64,000 nt of DNA from Rhizophagus irregularis (lineage: Eukaryota > Glomeromycota > Glomeromycetes > Glomerales > Glomeraceae). The stretch lies in the NCBI RefSeq assembly GCF_026210795.1, contig NC_089443.1, forward strand, positions 558,001 to 622,000. Reading direction: 5' to 3'. Positions 6,913-47,877 of this stretch are shown piece after piece; positions within the stretch are counted from its first letter, which is position 1, and every line of letters starts with the position of its first letter. The position numbers and the translations under genes were made by a program. The notes below the pieces were generated by a model. That model saw only the letters and a program-made list of their open reading frames with translations, made no database searches and was not told where the DNA came from.

Positions 6913-9900
6913 ATGGAACATCATATAAAAGAAAAAAATATAGAATACTATAATTATGATGAATTTACTAATATAGAAGAGTTGGGTGTTGAATTAGTCA
7001 ATAAGGTATACAAAGCAAATTGGAAACATGGAAAACTTATAGCATTAAAATCAATTAATTTAACTGATGAAATAATTAAAGAAGTTGTCCGTGAGGTACG
7101 TAATTAGTTTTAAAATCTGCGTGTAGGTCGTACAATCCATATTTATATAAAATACGCATGATGCATTACTTGTGTTTTACGGATATAAACATGTAGTCAC
7201 TAAAAATTTTATTTTATAGGTAAAAATACAACAGGAAAATGACCTCAATAACGCGATGATAAAATTGTACGGAATAACTAGTAAGACTAATTCAGGTATA
7301 TAAATTTGTTATTATCGAATTAAACAAATTTAGCCTTACCTACCTACTTAATTATATACATATATTCTTAATAGTGAATACCTAATAACTTTTTTTTTTT
7401 AATTTCAGATGAATATTTACTTGTTGTAGAATACGCAGAAGGAGGTTCATTTAATAATTATCTGAAGGTGAATTTTCCTTCGTTAAATTGGAGGGACAAA
7501 TATGAATTGGCCTTTCAATTATCAAGTGCTATAGAATATTTGCATGAGAGAGAAATAGTGCACAAAGATTTGCATTCAAGCAGTATACTTGTACAACAAA
7601 ATTCCATTAGGTTAGCAGATTCTGGATTAAGTAAACGTATTAAAGATTCTAGTCGAACTTATTTAGATACGATTCCTTATACTGATCCACGAGGATTTGA
7701 TATTGAAGGAATATCTTCGGATGCATTAGAAAAATATGAATCGAACGAGAAAAGCAACGTTTATAGCGTTGGAGTATTATTTTGGGAATTATCTAGTGGA
7801 AAAAAACCTTTTTCTGATAAAGAATACAATTCAATTTTGGCTGAAGAAATTGCACAAGGATTAAGAGAAGTCATAGTAGATGGTACGCCCAAAAATTATT
7901 GTATTCTTTATGAAAGTAAGTAATTATTTTTTTCGTATGTTTTTTTTTTATTTTTAAAAAAAGATATACACTAGAGGTGTAAACTTTACCGACGTAACTG
8001 CCGTAACAAAGTTATGTCAATAACGTCACTGCAGATGCTCACATAGAAAAATCATAATAATTTATATAATATCGAGCTATGTCACGAGTTACAACCTTTC
8101 ATTGACTTAATGAGTGACGTAGCTAAAAAAATAAAAAGCCTGCATCCCTAATATACACACGCTAATAATTAACAATAACAATCTTTTTAGAATGTTGGGA
8201 CGGTGATCCGGACAAGAGACCGACAATTCAGGATGTTGTTACAACTTTAAAATCGATGATTAAACAACAACTAATGATTCAAAAATTTAATTTGAATTAC
8301 GGATTATTCTTGGATGGGTATAGCATAAAACCAAGTAAACAAGCTGTATTTACTGAAGATGGCGAATTAAATATGAGTTCATATGAGGAGCAACCTTCAG
8401 TATATACTTCCATAAATGATCATAACTCACGTATAAATTTATTGAATTTTAATTCCGATGATAATGGCGTTGAACTTCACGAATCTCTACGATCATCAGA
8501 CATATGTATTAATTTTCCTGTTTCTGAAATTACTTATACCTCTGATTTATCAGAGATTTTTTCAAACTTTACGGATGAAGAAGAATCATTATACGAAATG
8601 TACGGTCATCTAGTTCCAAGAAAGATCTTGATTGGTGGTAAATTATTTATCGATGGACTTGAGTCGGTCAATTCAACACAAATCGATATTTTTAACTCTT
8701 ATTTAACTCGGATACATGATTCAGCTAAACACAAAAAAGAAATCCAACTTAATGATTCATCCGCTCTGAATTTTTGTCCAAAAATAATAACAACAGACGG
8801 AATAAATTTAGACACTCATGAAAAATTAACCGATTGGATGAATAATTTATACCAAGATGATACGGGTGAAATAATTTCGTATAATAATCTCGTTCCCATT
8901 TCTCAATTAAAATTCGATACAAAACCATTTATAGATGAGAAACAACCTGGGGTTGCTAATTTTAAAGAGAAATTAACTTTAGAAAATTGGGCTCAAAATT
9001 CGAAATATGTAAGATTGGTTAGAGAATTTCAACTTTTAAAAGGTTTGATAATTGATCAAAATTTTAAATTAAAGACCTGTGGGGAAAATGCCATTGATCT
9101 AATTAATCTTCCTAAAGTAGATTCAAATGATTCAAATGATAAATTTTATTTAGAAATCGTAAAACCGAAGTCTATTTTAGAAGAAATTTTAATTGATAAT
9201 AATATCTTCCCAACTGAAAATAATGAGGATATAAGCTCTTTTCCGTTTCTTAAAGTTTTAGCAGATAACCTAAGTTATGAAGATAAGGCATATTTTCTAG
9301 TAAAATGTGAACGATATAATATTACATTAAACAGAAATAATATTAAACCTTCAGAAAAATTTAAAGAAGACATAGATAAAGCACTTGGAGATATGAAACC
9401 ACTTATAAGTTTGCAAAAAGTTTTTGACAAATATGGACATTTTATTCCATTAAATATTTTATTAGGAAAATCTCTTAAGAATATCATAGAAAATTTATCT
9501 AACATATCGGAAAAGATTGATTTAGCATTACCAGTGTTTGAATCTCTAAAATTACATTTAGAAGCTTACAATATTAAAGTTCTTTTAACACAAAAAGGAG
9601 ATGTTATTGAAGAAAATGGTTTATCTGAATGGATTCAAAATACAAAGCATGACTTAGAAGTTATTGAACTCAATAATATAATTCCTTTATATAATATTCT
9701 TGAAGTAGAACAAACGAGGAGAATAGACACTATTTTGAATAAGCAAGATAAATCTAGGATTATAATGACTGGAACTGTTGATTTAAAAGATTCAGATATT
9801 ACTAAGCAGATAATTGTAAGTGTAAAACCATCGTTAGACAATAAAAATTACGAGGCTTTTGGATCAATTGTTTCAAAAAACAATTCAAAATTGGATGATA

Positions 9901-12041
9901 TTTTTGTCACATTTGGATCATATGAGAATTATGAATTTTCCGCGACAATAGAAACTTCAAAGAATACTAATATAAGCATAGAGGAATGTTATATCATATG
10001 GATTATAATTGGAAATCCTTCAGAATTATCAGTATTTTGTCCAAATAATCGAGAAATACAGGTTGATTATTTTAAGGAATCTATTACATTGCAACGCAAC
10101 GATTCTTCCTATTCTATTAAAACTTCTCGCCAGCTATCTCAAGGATCTGAAATCTCTATCAATTGTTTTAAGCCTATAAATGTTAAATTAACTGGATGGT
10201 CAAAGAATGGTATTCAGTTGAATATTTCTGATCCAAATATAAATTCTAATCATACTCAAACTGATAGCGATAATATTAATATTGATATAGCTGTTTGCGT
10301 TTCAAATTCAAATCATGAAAATTCAAAGGTTAATATTAATGGAAACAAATATTCAATGGGATGTATTTTAACTGAAAATAATTTTTTAGAAAGTATGTCA
10401 AATATACAAAAATACATTAATAACAAATATCCAACAAAAAAAGAAAGAGAGAAAGAAAGAAGGTTAATTATTAACAAAAAAAATTTGGAAGGACATTTTG
10501 ATTTATCTGATTTTATTAATTTAGAGAAAATAGATTGTTCTGAAAATCAAATTACTAGTCTAGATATAAGCAAGAATAAGCTGTTAACAGATATTAATTG
10601 CTCCAATAACAAATTAACTAGTTTAGATCTAAGAAATTGTTTGAATATTAAATCTGTCACAGCTAATTGTAATCAACTTAATGAATTGAAATTGCTTGAT
10701 TTAAATAATGAAAAATTAGAATATTTGAATTTGCTTGATAATTCATTTTCTCAAAATTTAAATTGTTTTGGCCATTTAGTTAATTTAAAGGAACTACTTA
10801 TCGGGAACATTGATGGTGATAGAATTCAACAAGGAAAATATAACCAGTTTTATGGTAGTTTGGAACCTTTAGAAAGTTTGATTAAATTAGAGAGTTTAAG
10901 TATTGGTAATAGTGACATAGATTCTGGTTTGGAATTCTTATCTGATAGTATTAAGAATTTTCGATGCTTAGCTGATAGAAGACCGGAAGCTAAAGTGAAA
11001 ATAATATATGAACAACTTGAGGTTTATACATTGGGTCCTATTGATGCTTCTCAAGGTAGATATAATTTAAAAGCATGGAAAGTAAACTGGCAATTGGCTA
11101 ATGAAAAGAAAGCTCTTCAAGATCAAATTACGCAAATTGAAAAGGAATTATCATTAGATACCCAATTTATAGAACTAATAGAAGAAGAAAATAACTTAAA
11201 TACAGAAAAAGAAAACTTGATAGAAAATAATATTCAAATTAAAGAAGAAATAAAAAGATTGAAACAAAAGGTTGAAAAATTAAGTGACGAATTAGAAGAA
11301 AAAGAAATTGCTTACCAACAAACAAAACAACAATTAGAAGAAAAAATAGAATTATTGAATTCCTTAACTATTGAGCAATATATGAAAAAGGAAGGGTTGG
11401 GTAAAGAAATAGATGTTTTAAAAGATGAATTAGAAAAGAAAAAGAATATTATTGAACAATTAGAAATGCAACTAAAAAAAATCAACAGCGAATTGAAAAT
11501 TAAGGAGGATGAATCTAAAACCTTAGAAAGTAAGCTAGATAAAATTGAACTCATTATCAACGATAAAAAAGAAGAATTAAAAGTTCTCCAAGAGAAATTT
11601 CGTTATGAAAGATGTTATACTAAAGCAAATACATCTAATCTGAGAAGTAAAATAGATAATTTAAAAAGCGAATTAAAAAAACAAGCATTAGAATCTAAGA
11701 AAATGAAAAATGAACTTAAAACTATTAGAAAAGAAAAGAAAACCTGCCAAGATGAACAAAATTCTAAACAAGCCAATATAGAAAACCTTCAGAAAGAAAA
11801 GGACAATTTACGATATAAGCTTGTTACCCGTACTAATGAATTAAATGATAAAGAGGAAATTATTAGTGAACTTAAACAACAAAATAAGCAGCATATTGAA
11901 GAATTACAAAATAGATTAGATGAAGAAATCAAAAAATACAATAAACTTCAAAAAAAGAATGCACACCTAAAAGAAAAATTATCAATATTAGAAAAAATAA
12001 TACAAGACTGTAAAGAAGAAACATCTTCAGATACAGATTAG
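6913..12041 (+). CDS. Kinase-like / tandem MACPF-like / LRR / coiled-coil protein
   Basis: Exons 6913-7095, 7220-7295, 7409-7915 and 8191-12041 join in phase to 1538 aa. Residues about 15-275 are a TKL kinase fold. The glycine loop is degenerate; Lys46 is kept; HRD is HKD (138-140) with Ser145 where the metal-binding Asn is expected; DFG is DSG (157-159). Catalytic activity is doubtful. Residues about 285-495 show a MACPF-type signature, YGHLVPRKILIGGKLF at 393-408, and the later W...IISYNNLVPI segment typical of the end of a MACPF fold. Residues about 600-770 repeat this more loosely (YGHFIPLNILLGKSL at 670-684). A beta-rich stretch follows, then leucine-rich repeats at about 1017-1182 and a long coiled coil at about 1222-1532. 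No signal peptide or membrane helix is visible. The start is the ATG at 6913; the upstream TTG is not needed. Role inferred: a sensor or scaffold coupled to a pore-forming-like domain. Confidence 0.8.
7972..8150. mobile_element. hAT-type MITE inside intron 3 of the kinase/MACPF gene
   Basis: The element starts TAGAGGTGTAAACTTT and ends AAAGCCTGCATCCCTA, an imperfect terminal inverted repeat. It is flanked on both sides by ATATACAC (7964-7971 and 8151-8158), an 8-bp target-site duplication as expected for hAT elements. It explains why this intron is 275 bp while its neighbours are 113-124 bp. The splice sites lie outside the element and look intact. Confidence 0.8.
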
Positions 12042-34188: not shown

Positions 34189-37016
34189 ATGGAATGGATT
34201 GAAGAAAAGATTAAGAATGAGGATATCCGATATTTTGATTATGATCAATTTAATGAAATCTCCATAATTGGTCGAGGAAGGTTCGGTATAGTGAGTAAAG
34301 CTAATTTGGCTAATACGGGATTGGTCGCATTAAAAACTATTTGTAGTGAAAATTCAGAAGAGGAACATAGTGAGTTTAATGATGAGTTTGTGAAAGAGGT
34401 ATAAATCACTTTTTTATATTGTACAGTATATTATCTAGTATATACTATAAATAAAATTAATTTTGTTCTACCATATTTTTTTTTTAGTTGAAACTTCTTC
34501 GCGAGGTTGATAGTCATCCAAACATCAATCGTTTTCTGGGAATAACAAAAGGTTTATTATTAGAGATTATTATTTAATGATAATTTATTTATACAATCTA
34601 ATCTAACTTATTTATATTTATAATTAATAGATTCTGAGTATTATATTTTGGTGTTGGAATACGCTAATGAAGGACATTTAAAAGGTTACTTGAACAAAAA
34701 TTTTGCTTCATTGAAATGGAATGATAAAATTCGAATGGCATTGGATATTATCAGTGGACTGAAATTTCTACACTCCAAAGAAATAATCCATAGGGACTTG
34801 GTAAAAGAGTATTATTTGCTTTATAGTATTTTATTCGTGATCAATAATTCAATTAATATTGTCATTACATTGTAGCACTCAAAAAATATATTGGTAAACA
34901 ATGGAAAATTAATAATTGCAGACTTCGGATTATCTAAAAAGTTGGCGGAAGTTATAACTAATTCAGCGGGTAATAGATATGGGGTGGTTGAATATGTTGA
35001 ACCACAATGTTTTAAAAATATCAACTATAAAAAAGATAAGAAGTCCGATATTTATAGTTTAGGTGTTTTATTATGGGAAATTTCAAGTGGGCGTCGTCCT
35101 TATTCTGACTGTCCACGAAATTTACTTAACGATCACATTAGAGAAGGTAATAGAGAAAAACCAATTGAAGGTACACTTCCAAAGTATCAAAAACTTTATC
35201 AAATATGTTGGGATGACAAACCAAAATCAAGACCCGACATTGAAGAAGTACATGAAATTATAAGTCAATTAAATATTGAGGATACTTTCAATCTACAATT
35301 TCCGCAACCTAATATACACAATATTGATGACATTAGTAAAGAAAATGATCATGATGATTTATCTATTTCTTCTAATTATTCAAATCGAAGTAAGTTTAAT
35401 ATATTAATTATATTGATTAATAACAATGTTTTCTATCATTAATAATTTAATTGTTATAGTCGATGCTGTCAATAGCTGTAATAATGACGATAACGTAAAG
35501 AAATTTGAAGGAATTTTCAAATCATCGGACTATGATTTGGATATAGATGAAAGAAAACTAAAATATAAGGATTATAACATCATTTTATGTGAAAAATGTA
35601 ACGAAAAATTTTATGGTTATTGGTATTGTAGAAAATGTTGCATTAACGAAATTGAAGAAGAAAAATATCGTATGTTACATGGAATATGTAAAGGATGTTC
35701 TCAAGCAATGAACATTCCCTGTTGGTGTCAATCTTGCGATTCAAATAGACTTCGACTAGATTTTGATAAGTGGACCAGCGGAAATAATTATGTTGATGAG
35801 TTAATAAAAGACAATCAATCTTCGGCTTATAGCAAACATATTTTAGAATGGATCCCATACGAAAATTTTACAGACTTTAAATTTATAGCTCGAGGAGGCT
35901 TTTCTATAGTATACTCTGCAACTTGGACAAATGGACGAATCGAAAAATGGGATCATGGATCTAATATCTGGAAAAGGTCAGGATCATTCAAAATTGCTTT
36001 AAAAATATTAAATAATTCAAGGGATTTAAGCGAAGAATTCCTAAATGAGGTATGTTTAAATGGGAATATAAATTAGGTTTCTTTTTCTTCATATTAATTA
36101 ATCATTTTTTTTTTTAATTTAGTTAAAATTTTTGAAGGAGTTTTCCAATTATTGTTATAAACATATAATAGAATGTTATGGTATAACACGAGAACCACTT
36201 ACTCTTAATTATGCGTTAGTATTTGAATTAAAAGATTGCGATTTGCGTGATTATCTTAATAATTATTATAAATCATTAACATTGAAAGACAAATTAGACA
36301 TTATAGAACGCATTTGTTTGGGACTAAACTGTATTCATAGTTGTAATATAATTCATAGAGATCTTCACTCGGGAAATATTTTGCTTTCGTCCAAAAAGAT
36401 ATCAGATGTATCTATTTGTGATTTTGGACTTTGTGGACTAGCGAGTGAAATAAAATCAGAAAATTCAAAAGAGAACATCTACGGAATAGTGCCATATATT
36501 GCCCCTGAGGTACTGCGTGGCGATGAATTTACACAGGCATCAGATATATATTCATTAGGTATAATTATTAATGAAATAATTTTTGGAAATCAACCTTTCA
36601 ATAGTCGGCCGTATAATGAATACCTCGCAATCGATATAGTATGTGAAGGATTACGTCCAAACATTAGAGATATAACGCCGGAACCTTTGAAAGAAATGAT
36701 TCAAAAATGTTGGGATGAAAATCCTAGAAACAGACCAAATACTGACGAAATTTATGATATGTTACGGGATTATATGTATACAAAAAATGAAGGAAATAAG
36801 GAACATTATTATAACTTCAGGAAATACACAAAACAATATGAAAAAGCCAAGAATTTATCATATAATTTAATCAACGAATTCCACGACTTTATGACAATAT
36901 TGCCATCAGAGTCACAAGTAAGTCGATCTTCATCGATTATTATTATAGAAACAACAAAAACAGGTAAAATAATCATCGTATTTTATTTATTTACTGTAAG
37001 TCGAGTATTTAATTAA
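34189..37016 (+). CDS. Dual TKL kinase with central zinc ribbons
   Basis: Exons 34189-34398, 34488-34551, 34631-34800, 34876-35389, 35460-36049 and 36123-37016 join in phase to 813 aa. Kinase A (about 20-290) has GRGRFG (28-33), Lys49, HRD (145-147), Asn152 and DFG (164-166). Two zinc ribbons follow (Cys363/366/376/379 and Cys396/399/409/412), then WTSGNNYVDELI. Kinase B (about 450-720) has RGGFSIVY, Lys501, HRD (594-596), Asn601 and DFG (616-618). Both domains look active. The joining intron (35390-35459) is phase 1. The region could instead be two genes, the second starting at the ATG at 35426, which lies inside that intron and is in frame. A phase-1 donor at 36964 could lead to an alternative last exon 37052-37104. 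Role inferred: signalling kinases of the expanded TKL set. Confidence 0.72.
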
Positions 37017-38785: not shown

Positions 38786-41700
38786 ATGGAATTAACTCAA
38801 AAGCCTAAAAAGTGGAAATATAATGGCGAATATCAGGTAAAATAATTTTTATACTGATAGATGATGTAAATTTAATATTTATTACATATTATTATTTATT
38901 TAATAAAAAGGTGCATGTTACTAATTCTTTAACTGAATCGGACGATGTTGATGAAAAAATAGTTTACATGGAAGATTTAAAAAAAAGAGAAGAAGTATAT
39001 GGGATATGTGTTGAATGTAATGAGCCTGGAACAGGGAAGGAATGGTGTCAACCTTGTAATGCTAAAAGATTTAAGAAAAATTTTAAATATTGGACTAGTG
39101 AAAACAAAGATATTGATGAATTAATACAACAATCACAAATGAATGCTGTACATTCTACAAAGTGTCTTGAATGGATATCCTATGAAAATTTTAAAAATAT
39201 TGTTCCTATTAATAAAGAAAATTCCAGTAAAATTTATTCAGCTGACTGGCCCAAAGGAAATATTTATTCATGGAATATTGAGAATAAAGAATGGAAGCGT
39301 TATTCAAATAAAAAAGTTGCACTAAAAAGTTTAGCTAATTCTTCTGATATAAGCATAGACTTATTAAACGAGGTAATTAAAAAATAATGAATTAAATTTA
39401 TTAAGAAATTTTATTTATTTTATTCTAAATTTATTTTTGACATTTTATATTAGGTTAAATCTCATATTCAGATTTATACTAAGAATATTATTCAATTTTA
39501 TGGAATAACACAGGATCCGAATACTAAAAATTATATGATTGTTTTACAATACTGTAAAGATGGAAATTTGAGAAATTATATAAATCAATCTGATAAGTAT
39601 ATAAATTATGAATTAAAAATTGATCATTTATTTCAAATTTCAAGAGGCCTTTTATATATTCACAACTCTGGAAAAATTCACACAGACCTTCATTCAGGCA
39701 ATATATTATTTGATGATGTCCCATTTATAAGTGGTTTGGGGTTGGGTCGATCAGAAACTAATGTTGAAAAACAAGGTGATTTACCTTGTATGGCCCCGGA
39801 AGTTTTGCATGGGTACGGATATACAAATGCAACAGATATTTATTCATTTGGAATAATAATGAATGAATATATATCAAAAGAATTTCCTTATGATATTCCT
39901 AATAATTATATTTTAGCAGTTAAAATATGTAATGAAGGGCTTAGACCAAAAATTTCTGAAAATATGCCAAAATTATTTACAGATTTGATTACTAAATGCT
40001 GGGATGCTAATGTGAAAAATAGACCAACTGCTAAAGAATTATATCAAATCTTAAATAAATGGAATAAGGAAAAATATTATAAAGATAGTGAAATTTATTT
40101 TCAAATAAATAAATGTGAGAAAAATGAAAGTATTCGAACTTATCCCGTAAAAAATTTATCATCTGAACAGCAAATAATTCGACAATTCAAATTGAACCAT
40201 GGATTATTCTTGGATGGACGTAGTATAAAACCTAGTGAACACGCTATATTTATTGAAGATGGCAAATTGAATATGAGTTTATATGATAGTCAACCTTTAG
40301 TTTATGTTTCCGTAAATGTCAATGACTCTCGTGTAAATTTATTGAGTTTCAATTCTGATAACAATATTGATTATGACAAAACTTTACGTCTATCAGATAT
40401 ATGTATTAATTTTCCAGTTGCTGAAATTTCTTATACAGCTAATTTAACAGAATCCTTTCTAAACTTTATAAATAATGGAGTAACATCATATGAAAGATAT
40501 GGCCATCTATTTGCAAGAAAAGTTTTGGTTGGCGGTAAATTATTCATTAATGGCCTTAAATCAGCCACTTCAGCACAAGCTGATGCATTTAAGTCTAACT
40601 TATCTTGGATATATAATTTAGCTAGGTATAATAAAGAAACCTCATTTATGAATCTACCTACTTCGGATTTTTTTCCTAGGGTAAGAACATTAGATGGAGA
40701 AGACTTAAATACTTATGAGAAATTAACAAATTGGATGACCAACTTGTACCAAAATAATATGATTGATATCATTTCGTATAATAATCTTATTCCCGTTTCT
40801 GAATTAAGGTTCAGTGAATCATCATCAATAGATGAGAAACAACCTGGAGTTGTTAATTTCAAAGAGAGATTAAGTTTTGAAGATTGGGCAGTATACGCTA
40901 ATTTAATAAGATGGATTAATGAAAATAATCTTTTCCAGGGTCTAATAATTGATAAGCATTTTGAATTAGCGTTTAGCAAAAAAATAGCTGTTAATTTCAC
41001 TAAAATTCCTGATGTAGATTCAAGTAATAATTCTTATTTGAAAATGGTAAGGTCAACAACAAAGGTAGAGGAATTTTTGACATCTAATAATATTTTTTCT
41101 ATTAAAGATATAGGATCTTTTCCATTTATTAATGAAATTATTAGATCTGAAAATATAAGTTATAAAGATTGTACCCATTTATTAGTAAAGCTCGAAAGAT
41201 ATAGAATTACGTCTGATATTGTACCTTCAGAAGAATTCAAACAAGACATAGTAAAAGCGCTTGAAAGTATGAAGCCATTTATGTGCTTACAAAATGTATT
41301 TGATGAATATGGCTATTTTTTTTCATTAAATATCGTCTTGGGAAAATCCCTTAAAAATATTTCACGAACCCCCTTATCATATAATTCTGAAGAGATATAT
41401 TTAGAAACAGAGTCTTTAAAATCACACTTGGATAAATTGAATGTTTCATATCTTTTAACGAAAAAAGGAGACGTTATTAAAAAAAAAGATCTGTCTAATT
41501 GGATTCAAAATACAAATAATGATCTAGAAGTTATTGAATTTGATAATATAATTCCTTTATATCATATTCTTGAAATAGAGCAACAAAAGAAAATAGATGT
41601 CATCTTAAATAAGAACGATAAGCTTAGAATTGTAATGACGGGAATTGAGGAATTGAAAGATTTAGATATTAAAAATACTGAACATTATAAACGAATAAAC

Positions 41701-44700
41701 ATAGAAGCATCTTTGGAAGATAAGGATTATGAAGTTTTTGGATCTGTTATTTCTAAAGATAATTTAAGATTAGAGAATTTTTTAGTTACATTTGGATTAT
41801 ATGACATTAATAGATTTAATGCAATGATAAAAACTTCCAAGAATACAAATACTAATATTACGGAATGTTATATTTTGTGGATGGTTATTGGAAATCCTTC
41901 AAAATTATCAGTTTTTAGCCCAAGTAATCGAGAGTTTCAAGTTGATTGTATTAAAAAGTCTATAACATTACAATCAAATAATTCTTACTACCCAATTAAA
42001 ACTTCTTATAGATTATCTGAAGGATGTGCGATCTCCTTCAATGCATATTATCCAACAACAAATTATGAGCCTATGCCTATAAATATTAAAATTAAATTGG
42101 TTAGCTGGTCGGAAGATTGTATTTATTTTCAAATATTTGAACCGAATCTAGATAGTTCGGATGTAATTTCTGATGATTATGACCAACTTACAGATATTGA
42201 AATAACAATATGTGTTTTATATCCAAATTATGAAAATTTAAAGATCGATAATAGGAACATAGAAAATTCCCATGATTTAATTGGTTGTATTCTAACTGAA
42301 AGTACAAAAGGTATGTTGAAAATTTAATTATATTTTTTCATTTTCAAAAATTATTATACTGTATATCTTATATATCATAATATATCATATTCAAATAGTT
42401 ATTCCGTTTCCAAAATTTTTTCCTTTAATTTCTGAGATCAGTAATGTTCTTAATGAAATTATTGAAATAACACAAACCACTGAATATTATAAACGAATTT
42501 GTGATATGTTAAAACAACGAGTTGATGCTGTAGATTTGGCTGTGCGTGATTTTAAAGTTAAAAAATATAATCAAGGATTTTTCAATCATAATAACTATAT
42601 TTATTTGCAAAAATTAGTTAATGTTATAACACAAATTAAAAATTTTATGACAGAAATTTCTCAAATGAAAACTTTGATAAAGTATATACAAGTGGAAAGT
42701 ATTGAGAAAACTTTCAAAGATTTATGTTATGAATTTGATGATTGTATTTATTCATTGGCTTTTGCTATCACCATTAAAAATTCTGATGTATTTGAACAAT
42801 TAAAAGCTGATCAAGAAGATTTAACTCAGGTAGGTATAAAATTTATTCCTATGTATAATACACTGTAAAAATGTATTTAATATGTTTATTATTCACAATT
42901 ATAGTATCTGAGAAATATGGACATTGACACAAAAAAATCTAATGATGATGTAACAGAAGTTGAAACTATCATGAAATTAAATTTTGTTAATTATGAAAAA
43001 ACTTTTCGTAAAAATTGGCATGTGACTAAACGGGTTAGCGTTAAAAATAAAAGTGAAGAATTCGCTTTTAAAATTATCTCTGAAGAGGAAAAAAGTATGA
43101 TACAAAATCAAATCACAATTCTTAAAAAACTTCATGACTGGCAAAATATTATAAAAGTTTATGGACTTACTTGTAAGGGAAATAAATGGTATTTAGTGTC
43201 TGAATGGGCCAAATATGGAAACTTGCGTGAATATTATACAAACTATAAAGATCGATTCGACCTTAGGTTAAAATTACGTATGTCCCTTGATATCGCCCGC
43301 GGATTAAATTTTTTAAGAACCGTTGAAGTAATAAGCATTATAAAAGTTTTCATTTATTGCTTTACTTATTTATTTACATTTTTAATTTATTTTTTGTTTT
43401 TCTTTTTAGATTGCGCACCATGACATTAGAGCAGAGAATATATTAATTACATTACACGAGGCAGCAAAACTAGCAAATTTTAAATTAAGTCGTTATATAA
43501 CTGCAAAATCATTAGAACAAAGCCAAAATTTAGAACGAGTTCGTTATTGCGCTCCCGAACTATTAGAGAGAACTTACAACTTCAAATATGATCATAAATG
43601 TGAAGTTTATAGTTTTGGAATTTTGCTTTGGGAAATTGCAGAAGAAAAAATTCCTTATGAACAGTATAAGGATATTGTAAAAATAACTGATTTGGTATGC
43701 AACAATAAATATCGGGAATCCTTTTCAAGAGACAGCCGAATGCCTTTATCATTCACAAGCTTAGCGCTTGAAGGTATGTAAAAATATGTGTATGATTTAC
43801 TATTAAATATTAATCATCTTTTTCATTTTTAGCTGTTGATCATGATCCAGATTTTAGACCAGAAATCTCTAAAATGTTTGAAGTTCTCAATGATTGTTTT
43901 GAAGAATCTGAATCCCGAGTATCTAATGTAAGTAAAAATAAGTGCATCTATATTTAATACGAATCAATTGTAATAGAGTATCTTCCTTTATGATATATTA
44001 TTATATTGTACTTAGTATTATCTAAGAGTTGCTAAAGAAGTTGAAGAAGTTGGAACTAATATGAGAGACTTAACTAATGATATTTTTTCAATGACCTTAA
44101 AAGCCAATTCGACGAATAGTATGGTGAAAAAACTTTTAGATGAACAAACTAAAAATGCAAAAAATGATAGTGAGAAAAATGATGATGATAAATTAAATGA
44201 AATGATTCAATCGAGGATTGATAAAATTTTCGCAGTACGTCAATTAAGAATATCCGATTACGAAAAAACTAATGAGAAGCCACATAAAGACGGGCGCGTG
44301 ACTAAATGGGTTAATATTAAAAATAAAAGTGAAGAATTCGCTTTTAAAATTGTTTCTGAGGAGGAAAGATCTAACGTACAGAATCAAGTTACAATTCTTA
44401 AAGAACTTCATGATTGGCAAAATATTATGAGAATTTATGGATTTACTTGTGAAGAAAATAAATGGTATTTGGTATCTGAATGGGCTGAATATGGTAATTT
44501 GCGTGAATATTACACAAATTATAAAGATCGATTCGACATTAGATTAAAATTACGTATGTCTCTTGATATTGCTCGTGGATTAAATTTTTTAAGAGCCGTT
44601 GAGGTAAACATTATGAAAGTATTCATTTATTGCTTTAATTATCTATTTACTTTTTTAATTTAATTTATTTTTTTTTCTTTTTAGATTGTACATCATGATA

Positions 44701-45215
44701 TTAGAGCTGAGAATATATTAATTACATTACACGAAACAGCAAAGCTAGCAAATTTTAAATTTAGTCGTTCATTATTCGCAGCTACATTAAAACAAAGTCA
44801 AAATTTAGAACGAGTTCGTTATTGCGCCCCTGAATTATTAGAGAGCGCTCATAACTTCAAATATGATCATAAATGTGAAGTTTATAGCTTTGGAATTTTA
44901 CTTTGGGAAATTGCAGAAGAAAGAACTCCTTATGAACAATATAAGGATATTGTTAAAATAGTTGATTTGGTACGTAATCAAAAATATCGGGAATCATTTT
45001 CAGAGGATAGTCGAATGCCTCCATCATTCATAAAATTAGCAATTGATGGTACGTAAGAATAATATGTAAATATGCGTTATTAAATTTCTATTAATAATTC
45101 ATCCATTTTAGCTGTTAATCACGACCCAGAACTTAGGCCGAAAATTACTGATACATTTGAAATACTTAGTTGTTGCTTCAAAGATTATGTAGGACTTCCT
45201 TCAAAATTTACCTAA
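38786..45215 (+). CDS. Zinc ribbon / triple pseudokinase / tandem MACPF-like / four-helix-bundle protein
   Basis: Ten exons join in phase to 1912 aa: 38786-38836, 38911-39372, 39454-42310, 42399-42829, 42905-43327, 43410-43773, 43833-43927, 44016-44603, 44685-45048, 45112-45215. A zinc ribbon (Cys50/53/63/66) opens the protein. Pseudokinase 1 (about 106-378) has no glycine loop, HTD for HRD (247-249) and GLG for DFG (Asp lost at 265). MACPF-like module 1 (about 408-628) has YGHLFARKVLVGGKLF at 520-535. Module 2 (to about 888) has YGYFFSLNIVLGKSL at 790-804. A beta-rich part follows. Residues 1124-1267 are a helical bundle resembling the MLKL N-terminal domain. Pseudokinases 2 and 3 (about 1290-1560 and 1600-1912) keep the Lys and HHD but read NFK where DFG is expected (Asn1431, Asn1780). 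No signal peptide is visible. Inferred role: membrane-acting signalling or cell-death protein. An alternative is two or three adjacent genes, but all intron phases favour one. Confidence 0.78.
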
Positions 45216-46501: not shown

Positions 46502-47877
46502 ATGAATTCTCTTCTCGGTATATGTGAAGAATGTAATCAAAATAATACTGGATATAAGTGGTGTAACAAATGTAATGCAAAACATTTTCAACAAAATTTT
46601 GAAAATTGGACTAGTGGAAATGAAGATATTAACAAATTTATTTAAGATACTCAATTATCAGCAGATTATTATAATGAAGTATTGGAGTGGATACCTTACG
46701 ATAAATTTAATAATATTGAGTTTATTGTAAAAGGAGGATTTGGTAGAGTATATAAAGCAACATGGATTGATGGATATATACAAAATTGGGAACGACATAA
46801 TCCAAATATGTTTGTAGCTCTGAAAAGTTCAAATAATTCAAAAATGTTGCACGAGAATTTATCAATGAGGTATAAATTTATTTATTTATGAAATTTAAAA
46901 TATAATATTTATTTACATTTCTTTTTAATGTGTGTAGATTACACTGCACCATAAAATTAATTATCGTATTTCATCTGTTACTTCGCTTTATGGGATAACG
47001 TAACAAAGAATTACATAATAGTTTTGAATTATGCAGAACATGGAAGTCTACGAAATTATTTAGATGTTAATTATGACAAATTAGGTTGGAAAGATAAGTT
47101 TGGCATTATACTACATATTGCAAATGGACTTAAGTTAGTTCATGAAAATGAATTAATTCATCGAGATTTACATATTGGTAATATATTAAAATTTTCTAAT
47201 GATAAAGTTTGTATAACTGATTTTGGATTATGTAGACCTGCGGTTTATAACAAATTAGAAAATAGTAAAAATATATATGGGGTTTTACCTCATATTGCTT
47301 CCGAAGTTATAAGAGGACAAAGTTATACCAAGGCTGCCGACATTTATAGTTTTGGTATAATTATGTATCTGGATTACCTCCATATTATGATGTGAGTCAT
47401 GATAAAAGTTTAGCAATAAGAATTTGTCAAGGATTAAGACCAAGATTTAATATTAAAGTGCCCAAATTAATTGTGGGTTTGATTAAAAGATGTTTAGATA
47501 GTAATCCATCAAATCGACCAACAGCAAAAGAAATTCGTAATATTTTATACCCATTATGGAATGATATTGATAATCAGATAGAATTAAAAAAGCAAACTAA
47601 AGCAGAAGAAATTAATAATAGTATTGTACCACCGACTGGTTTAGCTTTATCATATAAAACACATTCAGAAGCTATTTATACAAGTAGATTACTTAACTTT
47701 AATGATCTTCCTGAACCTAAAGATTCTGACGATTATTACGAACAAAATGATGTTATAATAAGCAATGAATATTCAGGTAATTAATGTTTTTTTTTTTATT
47801 AAAATATTCAAAAATATTCAAAAATATTATTTTATTAAATAGAATCTTTACAAATTGACATTTCTCAATTAAAATAA
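46502..47877 (+). pseudogene. Zinc-ribbon kinase pseudogene
   Basis: This is collinear with the intact minus-strand kinase at 16316-17812. The zinc ribbon (CEECNQ...WCNKCNAKHF), WTSGNEDINKFI, EWIPYDKF, glycine loop, HRDLHIGN, DFG and C-terminal tail are all recognisable. Lesions are a C-to-T stop (TAA at 46643-46645), a one-base deletion in the A run near 46840, a deletion of about 10 bases after GIT near 47000 that brings stops, and a deletion of about 10 bases near 47370 within IIMYEVISG. Introns are kept, so this is not a processed copy. The likely last exon is 47843-47877. Confidence 0.85.

Follow-up and report, generated by a model that had tools for sequence, protein, structure and literature searches.

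Tandem MACPF-like domains and MLKL-type bundle–pseudokinase units predicted in one chain in a gene family of Rhizophagus irregularis

The stretch of Rhizophagus irregularis DNA analyzed here, referred to as the window, comprises 64,000 nucleotides (positions 558001-622000 of contig 15, in a genome of 146.7 Mb on 32 contigs) and carries a multi-domain gene on its forward strand at 38786..45215. The ten exons of this gene (38786-38836, 38911-39372, 39454-42310, 42399-42829, 42905-43327, 43410-43773, 43833-43927, 44016-44603, 44685-45048, and 45112-45215) join to 5739 nucleotides that encode 1912 amino acids and a stop, and every intron is of the GT-AG type. This agrees with the original prediction of ten in-phase exons, and the observation of a multi-domain gene at this position is confirmed. 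The deposited R. irregularis protein P0001, the 90% cluster of which comprises 11 member sequences, is 99% identical to the window protein over residues 401-1270; its model starts within kinase 1 (see below) and splices into the helix bundle as in the window gene. A deposited paralogue, P0003 (locus tag OCT59_006926), starts like the window gene and reads like the paralogous locus L062, and its model omits part of kinase 1. All parts of the gene described in the following are on the forward strand.

The protein begins with a four-cysteine head (residues 18-99, 38911..39156), in which we read the pattern C-x2-C-x9-C-x2-C at residues 50-66. The four cysteines of the predicted zinc ribbon are thus present, and we call the head zinc-ribbon-like; the sole family listed by Pfam over the cysteine region was TAP_C (E 0.03). 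Within the window, similar heads were found at 46511-46663, 17815-17654, and 35663-35827. The head is followed by kinase 1 (39157..40086, with an intron at 39373-39453), a member of PK_Tyr_Ser-Thr (PF07714, E 2.5e-33). In the window copy, HRD has become HTD and DFG has become GLG, and no glycine loop could be read, as had been claimed for this domain. As kinase 1 of the loci L061 and L062 and of the deposited protein P0005 retains an intact DFG, the GLG loss is particular to the window copy. The description of the protein as having three pseudokinases therefore applies to the window copy, but not to these three relatives. In the window copy, the DFG aspartate is absent from all three kinases (GLG, NFK, and NFK), each of which retains the HxD aspartate, so that none of them combines the HRD and DFG aspartates by which an active kinase would be predicted.

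Downstream of kinase 1 lies a module with two MACPF/CDC-like domains, domain A (residues 416-632, 40186..40836) and domain B (residues 650-891, 40888..41613), and a C-terminal part (residues 893-1123, 41617..42309) that is beta-rich in the secondary structure of a model and gave no confident match in a fold search. The MACPF/CDC signature is Y/W-G-T/S-H-F/Y-x6-G-G. Each of the two domains has one YG-x-x-F-x6-G motif, YGHLFARKVLVGG at 40498 and YGYFFSLNIVLGK at 41308, in which the spacing of the signature is retained and T/S-H is substituted. Conservation of the glycines in these motifs is high, with G in 73 of 75 rows at model position 143 and in 76 of 76 at position 413, and 70 of 76 rows have K or R at the second G position of motif 2. 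Searches able to refute a MACPF fold recovered it instead; the module has the MACPF/CDC fold, of which domain A taken alone is a putative instance. With the module as a single-sequence query, pleurotolysin B came up no better than at E 1.6, and PF22693, a fungal MACPF-like domain, stayed below the threshold in P0001, P0003, and P0082. According to precomputed Pfam columns, the module is joined in other proteins to Sel1, TPR, AIG1 GTPase, GBP, or DUF7431 domains. Among these, P0058, P0064, P0069, P0115, P0316, and others combine it with AIG1-type or other GTPase, guanylate-binding-protein, SPRY, TPR, or DUF7431 domains. Such varied partners would fit an immune-like modular repertoire.

Exon 4 encodes a four-helix bundle of the MLKL type (residues 1124-1267, 42399..42829), which was assigned by profiles and the model of a homologue. 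The predicted MLKL-like helical domain is below the threshold with the exon alone and becomes clear with family profiles. A first profile of 36 rows, from which L035 was excluded due to an internal stop, found MLKL in the PDB at 2.3e-8, a partly circular result because the MLKL_N model had been used to find 29 of the rows. The rebuilt profile of 40 rows, from which L032 (the sole MLKL_N-derived row not found by the window exon) was removed and to which five rows were added, consists of loci that the window exon itself also finds. It retrieved seven distinct MLKL sequences at 2e-6 to 7e-5, with the next match at 0.019; some bias remains in it, as 28 of its 40 rows are loci with a high MLKL_N rank, trimmed to the limits of the MLKL_N match. 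A chance helix bundle was considered and rejected with these profiles, as MLKL, though weaker (2e-6), stayed the only significant family after the rebuild.

Free of MLKL_N was a profile of bundle and kinase together, built from 66 of the 120 proteins listed for the bundle–kinase piece of the window gene. Its best two PDB matches were full-length MLKL chains, 4btf (1.9e-48, 168.7 bits) and 6lk5 (5.5e-47, 163.8 bits), both aligned from the bundle to the end of the kinase, and a receptor kinase came next with 161.2 bits. As kinase-only MLKL chains scored 149.5-156.9 bits, the bundle contributes about a dozen bits. In the model of P0154, a homologue with 49% identity, bundle-like helices lead via linker helices to the kinase, and the helices between bundle and kinase, at the position of the brace helices, mostly have a predicted local distance difference test (pLDDT) score of 46-70. 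Fold searches with this model gave kinases only among the matches listed, and the bundle is supported by profile and not by fold. The profiles argue for homology of the bundle to the N-terminal domain of MLKL. The Pfam families listed for exon 4 up to E 5 included neither HeLo nor HELL, and the same holds for 12 relatives, for which 25 of the 36 families with E up to 0.1 were shown. In the fungus's own genome, at E 0.01, at least 137 matches were found with exon 4 as a single query and at least 80 with MLKL_N; these bundle counts, like those for MACPF_1 below, are lower bounds.

The bundle is followed by a linker and pseudokinase 2 (42905..43927, introns 43328-43409 and 43774-43832; HHDIRAEN, NFK at 43476), and then by a second helical linker, which lacks a bundle of its own, and pseudokinase 3 (44016..45215, introns 44604-44684 and 45049-45111). 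Both pseudokinases are matched by Pfam and have the HHDIRAEN loop and, in line with the original prediction, NFK at the DFG position. A pattern run over the 240 proteins of both lists of relatives caught 95 pairs of catalytic loop and DFG position. The DFG aspartate was found in none of the 81 pairs with the HxD(I/V/L)(R/K) loop of the bundle-kinases, 55 of which had NFK, and was kept in the 14 pairs with kinase-1-type loops. Pseudokinases 2 and 3 thus have the DFG-less kinase fold of an MLKL-type executioner.

The module and the bundle are separated by an 88-nucleotide phase-1 intron (42311..42398, GTATGT...AATAG), and it was in principle possible that two neighbouring genes had been wrongly joined here: the unspliced module frame meets a stop five codons beyond the junction, and module-free bundle-kinase proteins of 240-760 amino acids are common in Glomeromycotina. 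All six loci compared (the window, L061, L062, L064, L065, and L066) allow a frame-preserving GT-AG join in phase 1, a comparison made without a chance control, and in-frame joins sometimes arise by chance. However, the window, L061, L062, and L065 share the identical join position and phase; L064 and L066, whose joined sequences are nearly alike, have a weak donor and a weak acceptor and differ from the others in the sequence that results. The deposited proteins P0001, P0002, and P0003 have the same splice at this join and P0005 the corresponding one, and four named species are represented among the deposited proteins with the fusion. At L062, the join intron contains no stop, so that a single open frame of 1107 amino acids runs from within kinase 1 through the module into the bundle, whereas the bundle frame of the window has no ATG ahead of helix 1 from which a separate protein could start. 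Because of these joins, the deposited splices, the L062 frame, and the missing ATG, two separate genes are very unlikely, and together with the order of bundle after module we regard them as ruled out for practical purposes.

The window gene had appeared as a lone protein, which turned out not to be the case, as genome matches and deposited proteins make it one member of a family. A search for relatives of the module found 183 proteins, and the following counts cover the 120 that were listed. Each of the 120 matches the module profile. A bundle is present as well in 24 of them, after the module in 23 and before it in one (P0015). These 24 fusions are from R. irregularis (15), R. clarus (five), and Funneliformis geosporum (three), with one metagenome protein, and P0269 of F. 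mosseae adds a further species. The recurrent order is head, kinase 1, two MACPF domains, and one to three bundle–pseudokinase units, often with Sel1 repeats, which end several relatives. The fusion family to which the window gene belongs was thus encountered in the genera Rhizophagus and Funneliformis. Bundle-kinase proteins of module-free length were also found in Gigaspora, Ambispora, Diversispora, Cetraspora, Dentiscutata, Racocetra, and Entrophospora; as that search covered proteins of 240-760 amino acids, it carries no information on fusions in those genera.

The copies differ in composition. L061 and L062 have an additional bundle ahead of the third-kinase part, which is absent from the window copy, and, unlike in these two loci, no Sel1 end was found by a window search beyond 45215. 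L063 showed no bundle at the usual position, and its module is followed by a kinase. Lacking the kinase-1 motifs, the second bundle, and the Sel1 end, and missing a few residues at the start of pseudokinase 2 in an alignment with P0001 and P0002, the window copy could be a decaying paralogue without a present role in an otherwise functional family. Yet its frame of 1912 amino acids is intact, the cluster of the near-identical P0001 is well populated, and the ratio of nonsynonymous to synonymous substitution rates (dN/dS) against L061 and L062 was below 1 in all 18 domain comparisons (0.16-0.57, with the maximum of 0.57 in the bundle). The frame is thus constrained on average, although a recently dead copy would likewise give a pairwise dN/dS below 1, and we consider decay a highly improbable explanation.

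With MLKL, the animal necroptosis executioner, the family shares the four-helix bundle, the DFG-less pseudokinase, and, going by the homologue model, probably the linker helices, and full-length MLKL chains are, by a small margin, the top PDB matches of its bundle-kinases. In contrast to MLKL, the fungal protein, which is known from sequence, has a kinase and two MACPF domains upstream of a unit present in one to three copies, and Sel1 repeats are frequent. It differs from pleurotolysin B, other MACPF proteins, and PF22693 in that its tandem MACPF-like domains stand in a chain with kinases; no amphipathic hairpin was seen in the module, in a weak test. The main text of PMC8778642 describes MLKL-family homologues with Sel1 repeats that are exclusive to Glomeromycotina (TCDB 1.A.105); lineage, MLKL-likeness, and Sel1 are common to both groups, but no fusion is reported there, and MACPF occurs 0 times in that main text. 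Fungal HeLo/HELL cell-death proteins are helical-bundle executioners as well (PMC12881547, PMC10197012), and some HELL domains accompany kinase or pseudokinase domains (PMC12881547), whereas no such Pfam match was listed for the bundle of the fusion, the PDB matches of which are MLKL. Both papers review cell death and immunity in fungi; MACPF is absent as a term from their accessible text, and 'Glomeromyco' is found there 0 times (PMC12881547) or once, in the reference list (PMC10197012), so that they hardly cover this lineage. The original statement that no protein with this layout had been described needs a distinction: deposited unnamed proteins do have the layout, but our literature search, in which subscription journals were thinly covered, found no paper describing a MACPF–MLKL–pseudokinase fusion. 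The papers listed for MACPF with Rhizophagus or Glomeromycotina were, to judge from their titles and the start of their abstracts, not relevant.

We propose that tandem MACPF domains with one to three MLKL-type units serve a kinase-gated, regulated lysis of a hyphal compartment, a reading to which we give roughly an even chance. The pseudokinases would hold the bundles in check, as in MLKL, until a trigger releases them. This would probably be phosphorylation, either by one of many active relatives or by a paralogue whose kinase 1 is intact. The two MACPF domains might aid oligomerization on the membrane and perhaps perforate it, and the outcome would be lysis of the compartment in self/non-self fusion or in the control of a parasite or endobacterium. 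A necroptosis-like or membrane-attack function is in this sense a plausible hypothesis. Because of the kinase and Sel1 partners, we take the protein to be intracellular, as these partners suggest. The neighbour at 35417-37016, which has a cysteine head like that of the window gene as well as HRDLHSGN and DFG motifs, is one candidate trigger kinase, purely by position.

Several results weigh against the MLKL-type bundle or against pore formation by the MACPF pair. Exon 4 alone scored only 20.3 bits with MLKL_N (E 4e-4), under the Pfam cut-off of 27, a single-sequence phmmer search with it returned no MLKL, and a narrow bundle profile of 12 rows found nothing. Moreover, the would-be membrane hairpins of the MACPF pair had no amphipathic signal (mean z -0.72 to 0.42). 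This test is weak, since a mean z of only 0.41 was also obtained for MACPF frames that are nearly all solo, 22 of 30 of which yielded a score. The missing signal would nevertheless fit a tandem module that no longer forms pores and acts as a platform for oligomerization, targeting, or inhibition (for example as a decoy for solo MACPF), with the MLKL-type unit alone acting on membranes. The many unrelated partners of the module are scaffold-like, and 11 of 22 neighbouring MACPF_1 pairs (less than 8 kb apart) are divergent, with a frame of 662-725 and one of 829-1520 amino acids. On the other hand, the motif glycines are conserved, and no solo MACPF match adjoins the window gene among the matches listed, which makes such a platform unlikely in our view, albeit a serious alternative. 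Still less probable is a signalling scaffold without lysis, in which kinase-like and helical domains would assemble complexes. The Sel1 ends of several relatives would suit it, and the kinase and Sel1 expansion in R. irregularis has been interpreted as signalling (PMC6123716); the scaffold reading would, however, make the presence of two distinct lytic-protein folds in one chain a coincidence, and the loss of DFG matches the MLKL pattern.

Perforin-type and MLKL-type killing are normally carried out by separate proteins in separate pathways. The architecture is new and assembled from known kinds of parts, with lysis as its hypothesized function, and a conserved, multiplied gene family uniting both suggests an own branch of regulated lysis in a coenocytic symbiont with fusing hyphae. 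If true, this would provide a molecular handle on how arbuscular mycorrhizal fungi police hyphal fusion, parasites, and endobacteria. More tentatively, and as a possibility that we doubt more than we favor, these fungi may have a repertoire of NLR-like diversity, in which sensors and executioners (MLKL units, GTPases, leucine-rich repeats, and Sel1) can be exchanged for one another beside the tandem MACPF module; in the branch described here, perforin and MLKL would share a single chain, gated by kinases, for the lysis of hyphal compartments upon invasion or fusion with non-self.

The window contains further related sequences. A second gene at 7378-12041 on the forward strand has the same tandem module (51% identical, 8247-10376) behind kinase-like sequence; the module shares one open frame at 8169-12041 with a leucine-rich repeat match below the threshold (PF12799, 21 bits against a cut-off of 27) and what looks like a long coiled coil, and PF22693 was not listed for this gene at E 0.01. 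Also on the forward strand, a piece at 352-483 resembles the MLKL-type bundle (E 6e-7) and one at 1170-1332 has a weak likeness to the Sel1 end (E 0.006), which may be what is left of a further family member, or its distal end. Genome-wide, at least 83 MACPF_1 matches were listed, and the window locus is not among them though its piece passes the cut-off; 40 of the 83 are on contig G000:C28. The 11 divergent pairs, such as G000:C11:4192025-4195734, C23:1508165-1511931, and C28:2810655-2814265, stand head to head; in two of them (L012 and L064), the tandem module was observed within the long frame, and these head-to-head frames are possibly functional gene pairs.
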